From: Tessaracoccus flavescens
Lineage (GTDB): Bacteria > Actinomycetota > Actinomycetes > Propionibacteriales > Propionibacteriaceae
Length of the DNA stretch: 64,000 nt
NCBI RefSeq assembly: GCF_001998865.1
Contig: NZ_CP019607.1
Location: 744,001-808,000, forward strand
Reading direction: 5' to 3'
Position numbers and translations under genes: made by a program. How positions within the stretch are numbered: the stretch's first letter is position 1; each line of letters starts with the position of its first letter. Below are positions 48,140 to 51,703 of the stretch, one piece after another. The notes under the pieces were generated by a model, which worked only from the letters and a program-made list of their open reading frames with translations, was not told the origin of the DNA and made no database searches.

Positions 48140-48154
48140 GGGCGGCGCACACAG

Positions 48155-48227
48155 TGCCCCCAGCGGGGCTCGAACCCGCGACCCATGGATTAAAAGTCCA
48201 CTGCTCTACCGACTGAGCTATAGGGGC
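48155..48227 (-). tRNA. tRNA-Lys(TTT)
   Basis: 73-base cloverleaf on the minus strand: acceptor gcccct..., anticodon loop cttttaa with TTT, T arm gcgggttcgagccccgc. Its -10 box TAAACT (minus strand, 48239-48234) lies seven bases upstream. The 3' end faces the truncated kdpA. Confidence 0.95.
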
Positions 48228-48368: not shown

Positions 48369-48887
48369 ATGGCAACCGATACACACGTCCGTTCCGTTTC
48401 CGAGTTCGATCTCGAGCGCTACCTCGGCCTCTGGTACGAGATCGGGCGACTTCCGCTGAAGTGGGAGGACGCCCACGCGACCCACATCACTGCCGAGTAC
48501 TCGCTGCAGGACGACGGCGACGTCCGCGTCGACAACCGCTGCTTCGACAATGCGGGAAAGCCCACCCAGTCGATCGGCCGCGCGAAGCCCGTCGGTGACG
48601 TGCCCGGCCGGCTCAAGGTCTCTTTCCTGCCCGAGTTCCTCCGCTGGATCCCGTTCACCGAGGGCGACTACTGGGTGCTGAAGCTGGACCCTGAGTACAC
48701 GGTCGCTCTGGTCGGCACTCCCGACCGCAAGAACCTGTGGCTCCTCGCCAGGCAGCCCGACGTGCCGGCCAGCATCGTCGACGAGTACCGCGCCGAGGCC
48801 GAGCGGCAGGGCTTCGACCTGACCGACTGGATCAACCCCGACCAGGACGGGCGCCGCGTCACCGACGAACTGCTCCACAAGGACTGA
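48369..48887 (+). CDS. Bacterial lipocalin (Blc-like)
   Basis: 172 residues. Lipocalin motif 1 is RYLGLWYEIGRLPLKWE and motif 3 region is LWLLARQPDVPASIVDEY, with the RVDNRCFDNAGKP strand typical of Blc. No signal peptide is visible, unlike E. coli Blc, so it is probably cytosolic. Good RBS (gggaggtc). Possibly binds lipids or heme-like ligands. Confidence 0.88.
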   Translation: MATDTHVRSVSEFDLERYLGLWYEIGRLPLKWEDAHATHITAEYSLQDDGDVRVDNRCFDNAGKPTQSIGRAKPVGDVPGRLKVSFLPEFLRWIPFTEGDYWVLKLDPEYTVALVGTPDRKNLWLLARQPDVPASIVDEYRAEAERQGFDLTDWINPDQDGRRVTDELLHKD

Positions 48888-48896
48888 TACTGGACG

Positions 48897-49229
48897 TCAT
48901 TCACAGCCGGCGCCGTCGTCGTCACGGTCTAGGTGGCTGCCATATCCCGGCTGGCCGATCCTGATCGGATCGGCCCCGGCGCTGCGCACCGCCTTGCAGT
49001 TCGGGCAGTAGACCGACTTTGGTGCTTCCTCATTGAAGGTGTCGGCCAGGGGGCGGATGTCGGTGTCACTCGATTGTGCCGACCGCGCGACCGCTTCGAG
49101 CTTCCCGAGGGTTGGGGCAGCAGTCACGCTCACTTCTGGTCCTGGCACCGTTGCAGTGACCTTGGGAGCTGGCGCCGTCACTGTGGGCCGTGCGTGACTG
49201 GCCCGAACAACGACCGGCATTTCCGCCAT
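48897..49229 (-). CDS. Excalibur calcium-binding domain protein, short form
   Basis: 110 residues. The C-terminal 37 residues form an excalibur domain (NCKAVRSAGADPIRIGQPGY then GSHLDRDDDGAGCE), an extracellular calcium-binding module. It is preceded by a Thr/Val/Ala/Pro-rich linker. Proteins of this kind normally have a signal peptide or membrane anchor ahead of the linker; none is present from the first ATG (49229), so the 5' part may be missing or replaced. Confidence 0.65.
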   Translation of the reverse strand: MAEMPVVVRASHARPTVTAPAPKVTATVPGPEVSVTAAPTLGKLEAVARSAQSSDTDIRPLADTFNEEAPKSVYCPNCKAVRSAGADPIRIGQPGYGSHLDRDDDGAGCE

Positions 49230-49266
49230 GGTCTGCAGCCCCCGGGCGTCTGGCACGCTTGAGACC

Positions 49267-49929
49267 ATGGGTCCGTGGATGTGGTTCTTCATCGTGGTGG
49301 CGATCGGCGTCGTGCTGCTGGCCGCCGCGCTGCTCGCCGACCGCCGGGCCCGCAGGCAGCTCGCCGGCGCCGGAGAGCCCGCTCCGCTGCGGCACAACGA
49401 CGACGTCGACCGGCACGTCCCCGCCTACATCACGCAGGACGAGATCGATGAGCTTCCCGACCCCCACCGTGGCGCTCAGGGCAGCGTGCCTCATCGCGGC
49501 GAGGGGTTCTCGTTCGGGCATGCGCACCGCGACTTCGCAACGCTCAGCGACGGAGCGAGCCGCGACAACGCGAGCCTCCTTGTGGTCAACGGTCGGGTCG
49601 ACTCCATGCGCGAACTGTTCTCCCCCCTCGCCCGGGCGAGCGAGGACGAGCCTCTCATCGTCGTGGCGGACAGCTTCGACCCGGTGGTGGTGACCACGCT
49701 CGCGGCGAACCGTCGCGCCCTCGGGACGCCGGTCGTCGCGGCCCAGGCCGGCGCGAAGGACCGGCTCCGGCTCGCCGAGCTGACCGGCGCCGTCGAGCTC
49801 GACCCCTCCGATCTGCAGGCGGGCTACGTCCCGGTCGAGGCGCTCGGACGCGCCAGGCACTGGGCGAGCACGGCGAGCCGCACCTGGGTCACCCCGTTCG
49901 AGTCGGGGGAAACTACACCCGGGGTCTGA
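49267..49929 (+). CDS. Membrane-anchored protein resembling a GroEL apical domain
   Basis: 220 residues. One N-terminal membrane helix (WFFIVVAIGVVLLAAALLA, residues 6-24), an acidic/histidine-rich linker, then residues 101-210 that align with the apical domain of GroEL. LLVVNGRVDSMRELFSPL compares with ILLADKKISNIREMLPVL; EPLIVVADSFDPVVVTTLAA compares with [20 protein letters not shown]; then GTPVVAAQAGAKDRLRLAEL with TG. The ATPase (equatorial) and intermediate domains are absent. The apical domain is the substrate-binding part of GroEL. An anchored, isolated copy would be a mini-chaperone or a new use of the fold; this is inference from motif similarity. Confidence 0.6.
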   Translation: MGPWMWFFIVVAIGVVLLAAALLADRRARRQLAGAGEPAPLRHNDDVDRHVPAYITQDEIDELPDPHRGAQGSVPHRGEGFSFGHAHRDFATLSDGASRDNASLLVVNGRVDSMRELFSPLARASEDEPLIVVADSFDPVVVTTLAANRRALGTPVVAAQAGAKDRLRLAELTGAVELDPSDLQAGYVPVEALGRARHWASTASRTWVTPFESGETTPGV

Positions 49930-50317
49930 CCGTTGCGCCGCCGGATCTCCTCCTGCGGGTCGGAACCTCAAGCTGGAACCTCAACCTTGAGGGCGAACCT
50001 CAAGCTCGACTTCACCTCGGCTGACCCTGAGAGATTCAGGCCCCTCTCAACTTTCACACCGACCCCCGTTTAGCCGACTGCTACCCCATAACCCCTTGTC
50101 AGAGCAGAGAGAGCGAAAAGAAGCGCCGCGAAATCACACGCTTGTCGTTTTCGAAGCGTCTTCGGCGTGTCGCGTTGTCACTTCTCAGCAAACTCTCAAC
50201 CTCCGTTGTTCCTGGCTCGTACACCCTCTTAATGTCCGTCGCAGTGGCCGGACGTGTCCGGGGGCTGATGCCCCGGGGAAGCGGGGCGTCCGGCCAACCG
50301 CACCGACGAGGAGAGAC
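49930..50317 (+). promoter_or_regulatory. Promoter and structured leader of the SH3/VldE-like gene
   Basis: No gene in these 388 bases. Near the left end gaacctcaagct is repeated (49963-49974, 49995-50006) around a hairpin CTTGAGG-gcgaa-CCTCAAG (49986-50004). A promoter TTGTTC (50206-50211), 18-base spacer, TAATGT (50230-50235) is followed by a stem ggccggacg/cgtccggcc (50246-50254, 50287-50295) enclosing a second hairpin ccgggg/ccccgg. The transcript would begin with this structure, then gaggag at 50309 and the GTG. Could be a regulatory RNA. Confidence 0.5.
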
Positions 50318-51703
50318 GTGAAGAAAGCACTCAGAGGCCTACGCGGCGTTGCAGCAGCGGCCGGAGTCGCAGTTCTGGTTCAGGGACTCGGCACCCTTGC
50401 GCTCGGCCCGGCGGCCGACGCAGGCGACGGGGACGTGACCGCGACGACCCGCGTGCATGTCCGCACCGGGCCCGCCACCTCCGCCAAGTCACTCACGGTG
50501 ATCAACAAGGGCACGACCCTGCCCTCGTCCGGGTCGAGCAACGGCTGGACGAAGGTCACCTACAACGGCAAGACCGCCTGGATCGCGAGCGCCTACCTCA
50601 AGGGCTCGAAGTCCAGCGCTCCCTCGTCCGAGACGTCGAACGGCACCACCGTTGGCCAGGGTGGCACCACCTACACGACGGCGAACCTCAACCTCCGCAC
50701 CGGACCGTCGCTGCGCGACAAGGTCTTCGTGGTGATCAAGAAGGGCGCCTCGCTCTCGCTCACGGGGAAGGTGAGCGGCGGCTACACGCAGATCAGCTAC
50801 AAGGGCAAGGCCCTCTGGGCCTCGACGAGCTACCTGAGCTCGGCGAAGGGCTCCACCTCGAGCTCACTGCCGAAGGTCACGAGCAAGGCCCGCGGAACGA
50901 CGGCACTGATGATCCGCACTTCCTCGTCGTCGAAGTTCACCAATCTCGGCGACGCCCCGAAGGGCACGATCTTCGATCTGACCGGGGTCAAGGAGAACGG
51001 GATGGCTCAGGTCATCTACAAGGGCGCGGTCCGCTGGGTCAACGCCAAGTACCTGACCGCCGTCAGCGACTCGACCACGCCTTCGACGCCTGACACCCCC
51101 AAGACCAGCACCCGCTACGCGACGACCGTGCTGAACATCTGGGCCGCAGCCACCGGCCAGTCCTACAGCGGAGAGATCCCCCGCGGAGGCGAACTCCAGG
51201 TCACGGGCACGGTCAAGAACGGCCGCGCCGAGATCGTGATCAACGGCGCGAAGAAGTGGGTGACTGCCAAGTACGTCTCGACCTCGAAGCCTGCCTCGTC
51301 CGGTTCGGGCGCCTCGACCGGCGGCGGCACCTCGCTGAACCGCGGCTACTCCAGCGGACTTGACCAGACCAACGCGAACGTCCAGTCGATCGTGCGGGAC
51401 GTGTGGAACCGCTACCCCCAGATCAAGACCATGTACGGTTGGCGCCGCGACGTCACGCCCGATCACCCTGCCGGCCGCGCGGTCGACGTGATGATCCCCA
51501 GCTACAAGACCAACTCGGCACTCGGCTGGGAGATCGCGAAGTACTACCAGGCGCACGCCAGCCAGTACAACATCAACTACATCATCTTCGATCAGAAGAT
51601 CTGGTCCACCGCCCGCACCAAGGAAGGCTGGCGCTCCATGGCCAACCGTGGCGGCGACACGGCCAACCACAAGGATCACGTGCACATCAACACGCACGGC
51701 TGA
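50318..51703 (+). CDS. Secreted SH3-repeat protein with VldE-like C-terminal domain
   Basis: 461 residues. A Sec signal (RGLRGVAAAAGVAVLVQGLG, cleavage after the ADAG region) is followed by four bacterial SH3 repeats, each with the VRTGPxxxxK and GWxKV pattern or a drifted form of it (about residues 45-105, 120-180, 190-250 and 260-325), a Ser/Gly linker, and a C-terminal domain with HPAGRAVDVMIPSYK and HKDHVHINTHG. The His and Asp in these motifs resemble M15/VldE-type zinc peptidases. Probably remodels peptidoglycan. GTG start with gaggaga RBS. Confidence 0.85.
   Translation: MKKALRGLRGVAAAAGVAVLVQGLGTLALGPAADAGDGDVTATTRVHVRTGPATSAKSLTVINKGTTLPSSGSSNGWTKVTYNGKTAWIASAYLKGSKSSAPSSETSNGTTVGQGGTTYTTANLNLRTGPSLRDKVFVVIKKGASLSLTGKVSGGYTQISYKGKALWASTSYLSSAKGSTSSSLPKVTSKARGTTALMIRTSSSSKFTNLGDAPKGTIFDLTGVKENGMAQVIYKGAVRWVNAKYLTAVSDSTTPSTPDTPKTSTRYATTVLNIWAAATGQSYSGEIPRGGELQVTGTVKNGRAEIVINGAKKWVTAKYVSTSKPASSGSGASTGGGTSLNRGYSSGLDQTNANVQSIVRDVWNRYPQIKTMYGWRRDVTPDHPAGRAVDVMIPSYKTNSALGWEIAKYYQAHASQYNINYIIFDQKIWSTARTKEGWRSMANRGGDTANHKDHVHINTHG

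Follow-up and report, generated by a model that had tools for sequence, protein, structure and literature searches.

Does a bacterium make, as a natural membrane protein, the isolated GroEL apical domain that is otherwise handled as a laboratory fragment? The question is raised by a gene in a 64,000-nucleotide stretch of Tessaracoccus flavescens DNA (contig NZ_CP019607.1, positions 744,001 to 808,000; referred to here as the window), in which an earlier note, made from the letters alone, had placed an open reading frame at 49267..49929 and read it as a membrane-anchored apical domain; the frame is indeed present at these coordinates. To our knowledge no natural protein is a lone GroEL apical domain, and the literature that we searched (open-licence PMC papers) showed no natural free-standing, membrane-anchored one. 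Excerpts of PMC4973282 and PMC9138447 describe the isolated domain as a laboratory minichaperone, and in the latter the engineered versions comprise GroEL 191-345 and, from T. thermophilus, GrAD 190-333. The features on which our analysis rests are as follows.

49267..49929, + strand: gene of the membrane-anchored GroEL apical-domain protein, 220 codons and a stop (open reading frame; start common to relatives; dN<dS in all pairs)
49273..49341, + strand: single N-terminal membrane helix, residues 3-25, the predicted helix continuing to 33 (AlphaFold; flanking charges)
49366..49494, + strand: conserved linker, residues 34-76, with PAPxR and VPxYxTQ motifs and a low-confidence prediction (alignment; pLDDT)
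49495..49905, + strand: GroEL apical domain, residues 77-213, corresponding to GroEL 191-338
49606..49632, + strand: helix H equivalent, residues 114-122 (predicted helix; equivalents of R231, E232, L234 and L237)
49681..49722, + strand: helix I equivalent, residues 139-152 (predicted helix; equivalents of L259, V263, V264 and N265)
50096..51703, + strand: gene of an SH3-repeat protein, probably secreted, its true start probably further in (SH3_3; related gene near 38 of 45 loci)

Identity and architecture of the protein

The gene starts at the ATG at 49267, which is common to its relatives (another in-frame ATG lies upstream at 49228), and its stop codon ends at 49929. Used as a single-sequence query, the protein matches the NCBIfam GroEL model NF009487 over residues 97-207 (E=1.2e-5) and a GroEL apical domain in the PDB at E=0.002; Pfam gives no match up to E=1. 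The best PDB match improves to 9.4e-12 with a 60-sequence family profile and to 6.3e-23 with a wider 23-sequence profile, and group I chaperonins account for all of the best 60 of 65 and all of the best 60 of 77 PDB matches, respectively. A fold search with the predicted structure aligns residues 77-213 with GroEL 191-338, some rows reaching 216 and 341; in this and a second fold search all matches listed (50 each) are group I chaperonins, and no other fold, group II chaperonins included, is among them. Group II (CCT/thermosome) rows may rank lower than the PDB and fold matches listed, which are all group I. When the genome of T. flavescens itself is searched with the profile, the next-best matches are its two genuine GroELs, each of them aligned over model positions 75-215. 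As far as identity alone is concerned, we regard the protein as almost certainly a true group I chaperonin apical domain. The earlier note had confined the match to residues 101-210; the match is real and its extent greater. That note had also named two checks, of the predicted fold and of rival families: the fold is that of the GroEL apical domain, and no family scores better in Pfam, NCBIfam or PDB sequences.

The other domains of GroEL are missing, as had been claimed from the letters. The protein has 220 residues in all, the NCBIfam and PDB matches cover the apical part only, and there is thus no equatorial ATPase domain; nor is there an intermediate domain, as the GroEL match spans about 191 to 338 and no residues are left over. 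What the protein shares with GroEL/Hsp60 is therefore sequence homology over about 191-338 and a predicted fold with helices H and I, and what it adds is a membrane helix and a linker.

The membrane helix, likewise foreseen in the earlier note, is the first part of an AlphaFold helix at residues 3-33, the hydrophobic portion of which comes first. Charge flanks it on one side only: in two alignments taken together (60 close and 23 wider members, five sequences occurring in both), all 83 rows have no Lys or Arg before the most hydrophobic 19-residue stretch, and all 83 have at least three in the 15 residues that follow it (mean 4.5). Given the positive-inside rule, positive charge solely after the helix would put the apical domain on the cytosolic side of the membrane, a topology that rests on the charge rule. 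Between helix and domain the linker has invariant residues P38, A39, P40, R42, P52, Y54, T56, Q57 and D61 across 60 sequences, and pLDDT is 51-68 in blocks 31-60 of the predicted model. Because it is so strongly conserved, the linker too may have a binding role. A fourth profile match in the same genome, at C1:339725-339925 (E=5.4e-4, model positions 3-68), contains one stop and corresponds to helix and linker only.

Conservation and genomic surroundings

A search of 5.8 billion proteins yielded 59 relatives, with E values from 3.5e-136 to 1.2e-48; the seven that are named by source are each called 'hypothetical protein' and come from Tessaracoccus, Arachnia, Propionibacteriaceae or no stated organism. 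The orthologues that the earlier note had suggested looking for in the Propionibacteriaceae occur across that family, at least 145 of 197 genomes and at least 23 genera having a member. This count consists of at least 142 genomes from the matches listed, including two (G185 and G195) whose match starts only inside the linker or domain, plus three genomes of genus g4 confirmed by local search. Within the same genus a member is found among the matches listed in 37 of 38 genomes, the exception (G014) being 60% complete, and a separate search of a 39th (G008) found a copy in pieces. Two genera of four genomes each (g29 and g34) have no member among the matches listed, and several genera seem to be without the gene. 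Among 296 genomes of the class, the matches listed outside the family all lie in open reading frames of at least 360 aa, as expected of GroEL. The family and class matches listed extend to about 3e-24 and 2e-22, and further or very divergent members may rank below these values.

The gene is under purifying selection. Eleven genes were taken and one identical copy dropped; among the remaining 10, the window's gene included, codon position 3 is the most divergent, dN is smaller than dS in all 45 pairs, and the four closest pairs have dN 0.19-0.25 against dS 0.90-1.16. One might suspect a functionless, decaying piece of a GroEL gene from the Tessaracoccus coleopterorum copy (L012:8001-8695), which is split over several frames and is either a pseudogene or an assembly error, and from a 68-residue frame at L095:9107-9310 that resembles the family's C-terminal end (E=4.1e-5), a possible remnant left out of the count. 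The selection results, the presence of members in so many genomes and the conservation of N-terminal helix and linker contradict this explanation, and we give it next to no weight.

The position of the gene is also conserved. In 44 of 45 loci there is a tRNA no more than 5 kb away, usually tRNA-Lys upstream and Glu, Asp or Phe downstream; this indicates that the gene has been inherited vertically and has largely stayed in place. In the window an Rfam search of 36000-64000 finds four tRNAs and nothing else. Next to the tRNA-Lys (48154-48227) kdpA looks broken: its frame at 46814-48236 matches only the first 221 of 563 KdpA-model positions, and the gene continues in another frame from about 47646 and ends at the tRNA. 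A lipocalin gene (48369-48887; Lipocalin_2, E=1.4e-42) separates tRNA-Lys from the apical gene. The distance from tRNA-Lys to the middle of the apical gene is about 1.4 kb here versus about 0.3-0.5 kb in many relatives, so the stretch may have been inserted locally.

The earlier note had described the neighbours as secreted and envelope genes, and the SH3-domain gene downstream fits that description. No other gene occurs as often within 4.5 kb of the apical gene: it is present at 38 of 45 loci, 34 of the 45 having it downstream in the same orientation, and the runner-up, a Zincin_1 gene, is near 18 of 45. The product of the SH3-domain gene matches SH3_3, and its SH3 part also resembles several NCBIfam models of cell-wall binding, with scores well short of the cut-offs; the C-terminal part matches a PDB entry called 'LysM domain-containing protein' (1.5e-11) and has a His/Asp pattern that we take to resemble M15-type peptidases. 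DUF202 genes are a second group of neighbours. In nine of 52 hand-chosen genomes (7 genera), two DUF202 genes follow the apical match at a distance of no more than 150 bases, and in four more such genes are within 3 kb; in T. flavescens itself the pair is elsewhere (C1:953316 and 953636). On a contig from a metagenome-assembled genome, one 375 aa frame (L053:5150-6277) joins the apical protein and a DUF202 domain, perhaps as a true fusion, perhaps through a lost stop or a sequence error.

These arrangements could mean that the apical protein is dedicated to the DUF202 membrane proteins or to the adjoining SH3-domain protein, the latter of which it might, for example, hold before export. Besides the neighbour frequencies and the fusion-like frame, this reading can draw on the divergent members in genus g4, which the SH3 gene adjoins too. 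Neither gene is an obligatory partner, however. DUF202 is absent from 24 of the 52 genomes, among them carriers of the apical gene such as G005 and G034, and as an obligatory partner it is rejected. For the SH3 gene the case is weakened by the tRNA framing, as synteny within a tRNA-framed block is weak evidence of joint function and may be merely positional, and by its occurrence on its own: 12 SH3-gene loci fetched from genomes without a listed apical gene contained a divergent apical gene in three (all genus g4), and the other nine had none adjoining, one of them with a possible remnant. We consider a dedicated partnership of this kind quite unlikely. Apical paralogues beside the gene, which extra frames at some loci, L012 included, had brought to mind, were rejected at the following loci: the extra frame at L055 is on the opposite strand and runs over a tRNA, and those at L043, L045, L047, L048 and L051 are DUF202 genes or were taken as such.

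Control of the gene appears to differ from that of the chaperonins. Both groEL loci of this genome carry a CIRCE element with 1 mismatch, whereas upstream of the apical gene, with the starts of 45 loci aligned, the best CIRCE has 7 mismatches (6 in shuffled sequence) and the best HAIR 4 (3 in shuffled sequence). Since neither is better than shuffled sequence, the gene probably does not belong to the HrcA heat-shock group. A search of the whole window gave no CIRCE match and one HAIR match, far away and at chance level, and a scan of 48880-50320 for promoters and terminators picked up a single terminator-like site, on the minus strand, but no promoter. Clustered AACCTCAAG-type repeats precede the SH3-domain gene at 49964-50014; among them is a perfect inverted repeat at 49986-50004, CTTGAG-N7-CTCAAG, a pattern not matched even once in any of 100 shuffles. 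The repeats are perhaps a regulator site, with a spacing that differs from that of HAIR.

The substrate-binding groove

GroEL mutations that impair substrate binding include those at Y199, S201, Y203, F204, L234, L237, L259 and V263, according to passages of PMC3268035, and V264 is also listed as a contributor in an excerpt of PMC7289027. We compared the equivalent positions in the 60 close relatives and the 23 wider members. In the close relatives the position equivalent to F204, on the groove floor, is Phe in 60/60; those of L234 and L237 are hydrophobic in 60/60 each and that of L259 in 59/60 (one gap), and the N265 equivalent is Asn in 59/60 (one gap). In the window's own protein the L234, L237 and L259 positions are occupied by F118, L121 and V142. 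V263 is replaced by Ala in 57/60 and V264 by Ala in 59/60. At the rim, Y199 has become His in 57/60, S201 His in 54/60, and Y203 Asp in 56/60 and Glu in 4/60. The wider members are hydrophobic at F204 (23/23), L234 (23/23), L237 (22/23), L259 (19/23) and V264 (23/23), at Y199 in 14/23 and at Y203 in only 2/23; six of the 23 have Glu for V263, and none of the 23 keeps the GroEL loop around KAPGFGDRRK in full, the loop being either shortened or absent. Judged from these alignments, the floor of the groove is kept and its rim is changed. Both helices that the earlier note had singled out are there, but their hydrophobic groove is conserved in part only, and this changed rim, with the lost or shortened GFGDRR loop and the lack of CIRCE, sets the protein apart from GroEL/Hsp60 beyond its missing domains. 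We read the changed groove as specialised rather than promiscuous binding. With an acidic residue at 203, His at 199 and Glu for V263 in six of 23, the groove could also have lost peptide binding altogether and be no longer in use.

The protein also has an HAHxD pattern at residues 85-89 (49519-49533), with His85 in 57/60, His87 in 54/60 and Asp89 in 56/60 close relatives; it is not general in distant members, position 85 being His in 8/23. Position 138 is His in 40/60 close relatives and Asp in the window's own protein. The pattern and the His at 138 could form a putative metal site.

Could the protein then be a general mini-chaperone, a membrane-tethered holdase that uses the H/I groove promiscuously for unfolded or nascent membrane and secretory proteins, much as GroEL apical domains in isolation do in vitro? 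Its domain limits are nearly the same as those of the engineered minichaperone in the parts of PMC9138447 available, and, as excerpts of that paper and of PMC4973282 describe, such domains on their own work without ATP and keep fibrils from forming. The hydrophobic equivalents of F204, L234, L237 and L259 would also suit such a role. However, in close relatives the equivalents of Y199 and Y203 are polar or charged and V263 and V264 are reduced to Ala, with Glu at V263 in a quarter or so of the wider members, and the gene has no CIRCE. The multivalency of the chaperonin ring matters for apical domains, and single domains are without it. We therefore hold a general mini-chaperone to be rather unlikely. 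A related version, in which one family has its own native membrane-tethered mini-chaperone in a tRNA-framed place, holding segments of clients at the inner side of the membrane without ATP and in a subset of lineages tied by operon, once perhaps by fusion, to DUF202 membrane proteins, can be entertained tentatively.

The same groove raises the thought of a docking site that recruits GroES or GroEL/GroES to the membrane by binding the GroES mobile loop. In GroEL, according to the text excerpted from PMC4973282, helices H and I form the surface to which both GroES and unfolded protein bind. The losses at the rim speak against such docking, and in the neighbour table no gene points to GroES; it seems to us very unlikely.

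A proposed tethered peptide-binding module

The reading that we prefer, to which, function included, we give a probability of roughly one half, is that the protein is tethered to the membrane and binds peptides independently of ATP, with a narrowed groove and a narrow set of partners. A group I apical domain would have been cut loose from the ATPase and ring-forming parts and anchored by the N-terminal helix and conserved linker on the cytosolic side of the cell membrane. There, without ATP, the H/I groove would bind a stretch of peptide, amphipathic or hydrophobic in character, in a protein located at the membrane; this stretch would then leave by simple exchange or be passed on to another factor. 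We infer narrow specificity because two classical hydrophobic groove positions are lost in close relatives and the domain as a whole is conserved; moreover, with full-length GroELs of its own, the cell already has general folding served. Such a protein would be an adaptor or a dedicated holdase rather than a general folding machine.

Two known uses of apical domains bear comparison with this proposal. The engineered minichaperone has nearly the same domain limits, going by the passages cited above, and also lacks the ATPase, but it is a soluble laboratory fragment with an intact hydrophobic groove, whereas the present protein is a naturally occurring membrane protein whose groove has changed and which is known from its sequence. 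The other is PIKfyve/Fab1, which holds a chaperonin apical-like domain, Fab1_TCP; excerpts of PMC2846930 present this as an apical-type domain reused outside a chaperonin with its binding positions mostly conserved. Fab1_TCP is eukaryotic, nearest to the apical domain of CCT3 (group II) and part of a large lipid kinase (in the same excerpts), unlike the small, bacterial, membrane-anchored protein described here.

The Propionibacteriaceae thus have a conserved, natural, membrane-anchored apical domain with boundaries close to those of the laboratory fragment; with it one can test directly whether a living cell benefits from an apical domain that has neither ATPase nor ring, and what part of the groove a narrower task requires. 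If it is an adaptor and not a chaperone, it would be a bacterial counterpart of eukaryotic PIKfyve, and chaperonin apical domains would be reusable peptide-binding modules. Evolution may here have produced a mini-chaperone, or it may have turned a part of a chaperonin to a new use at the membrane.
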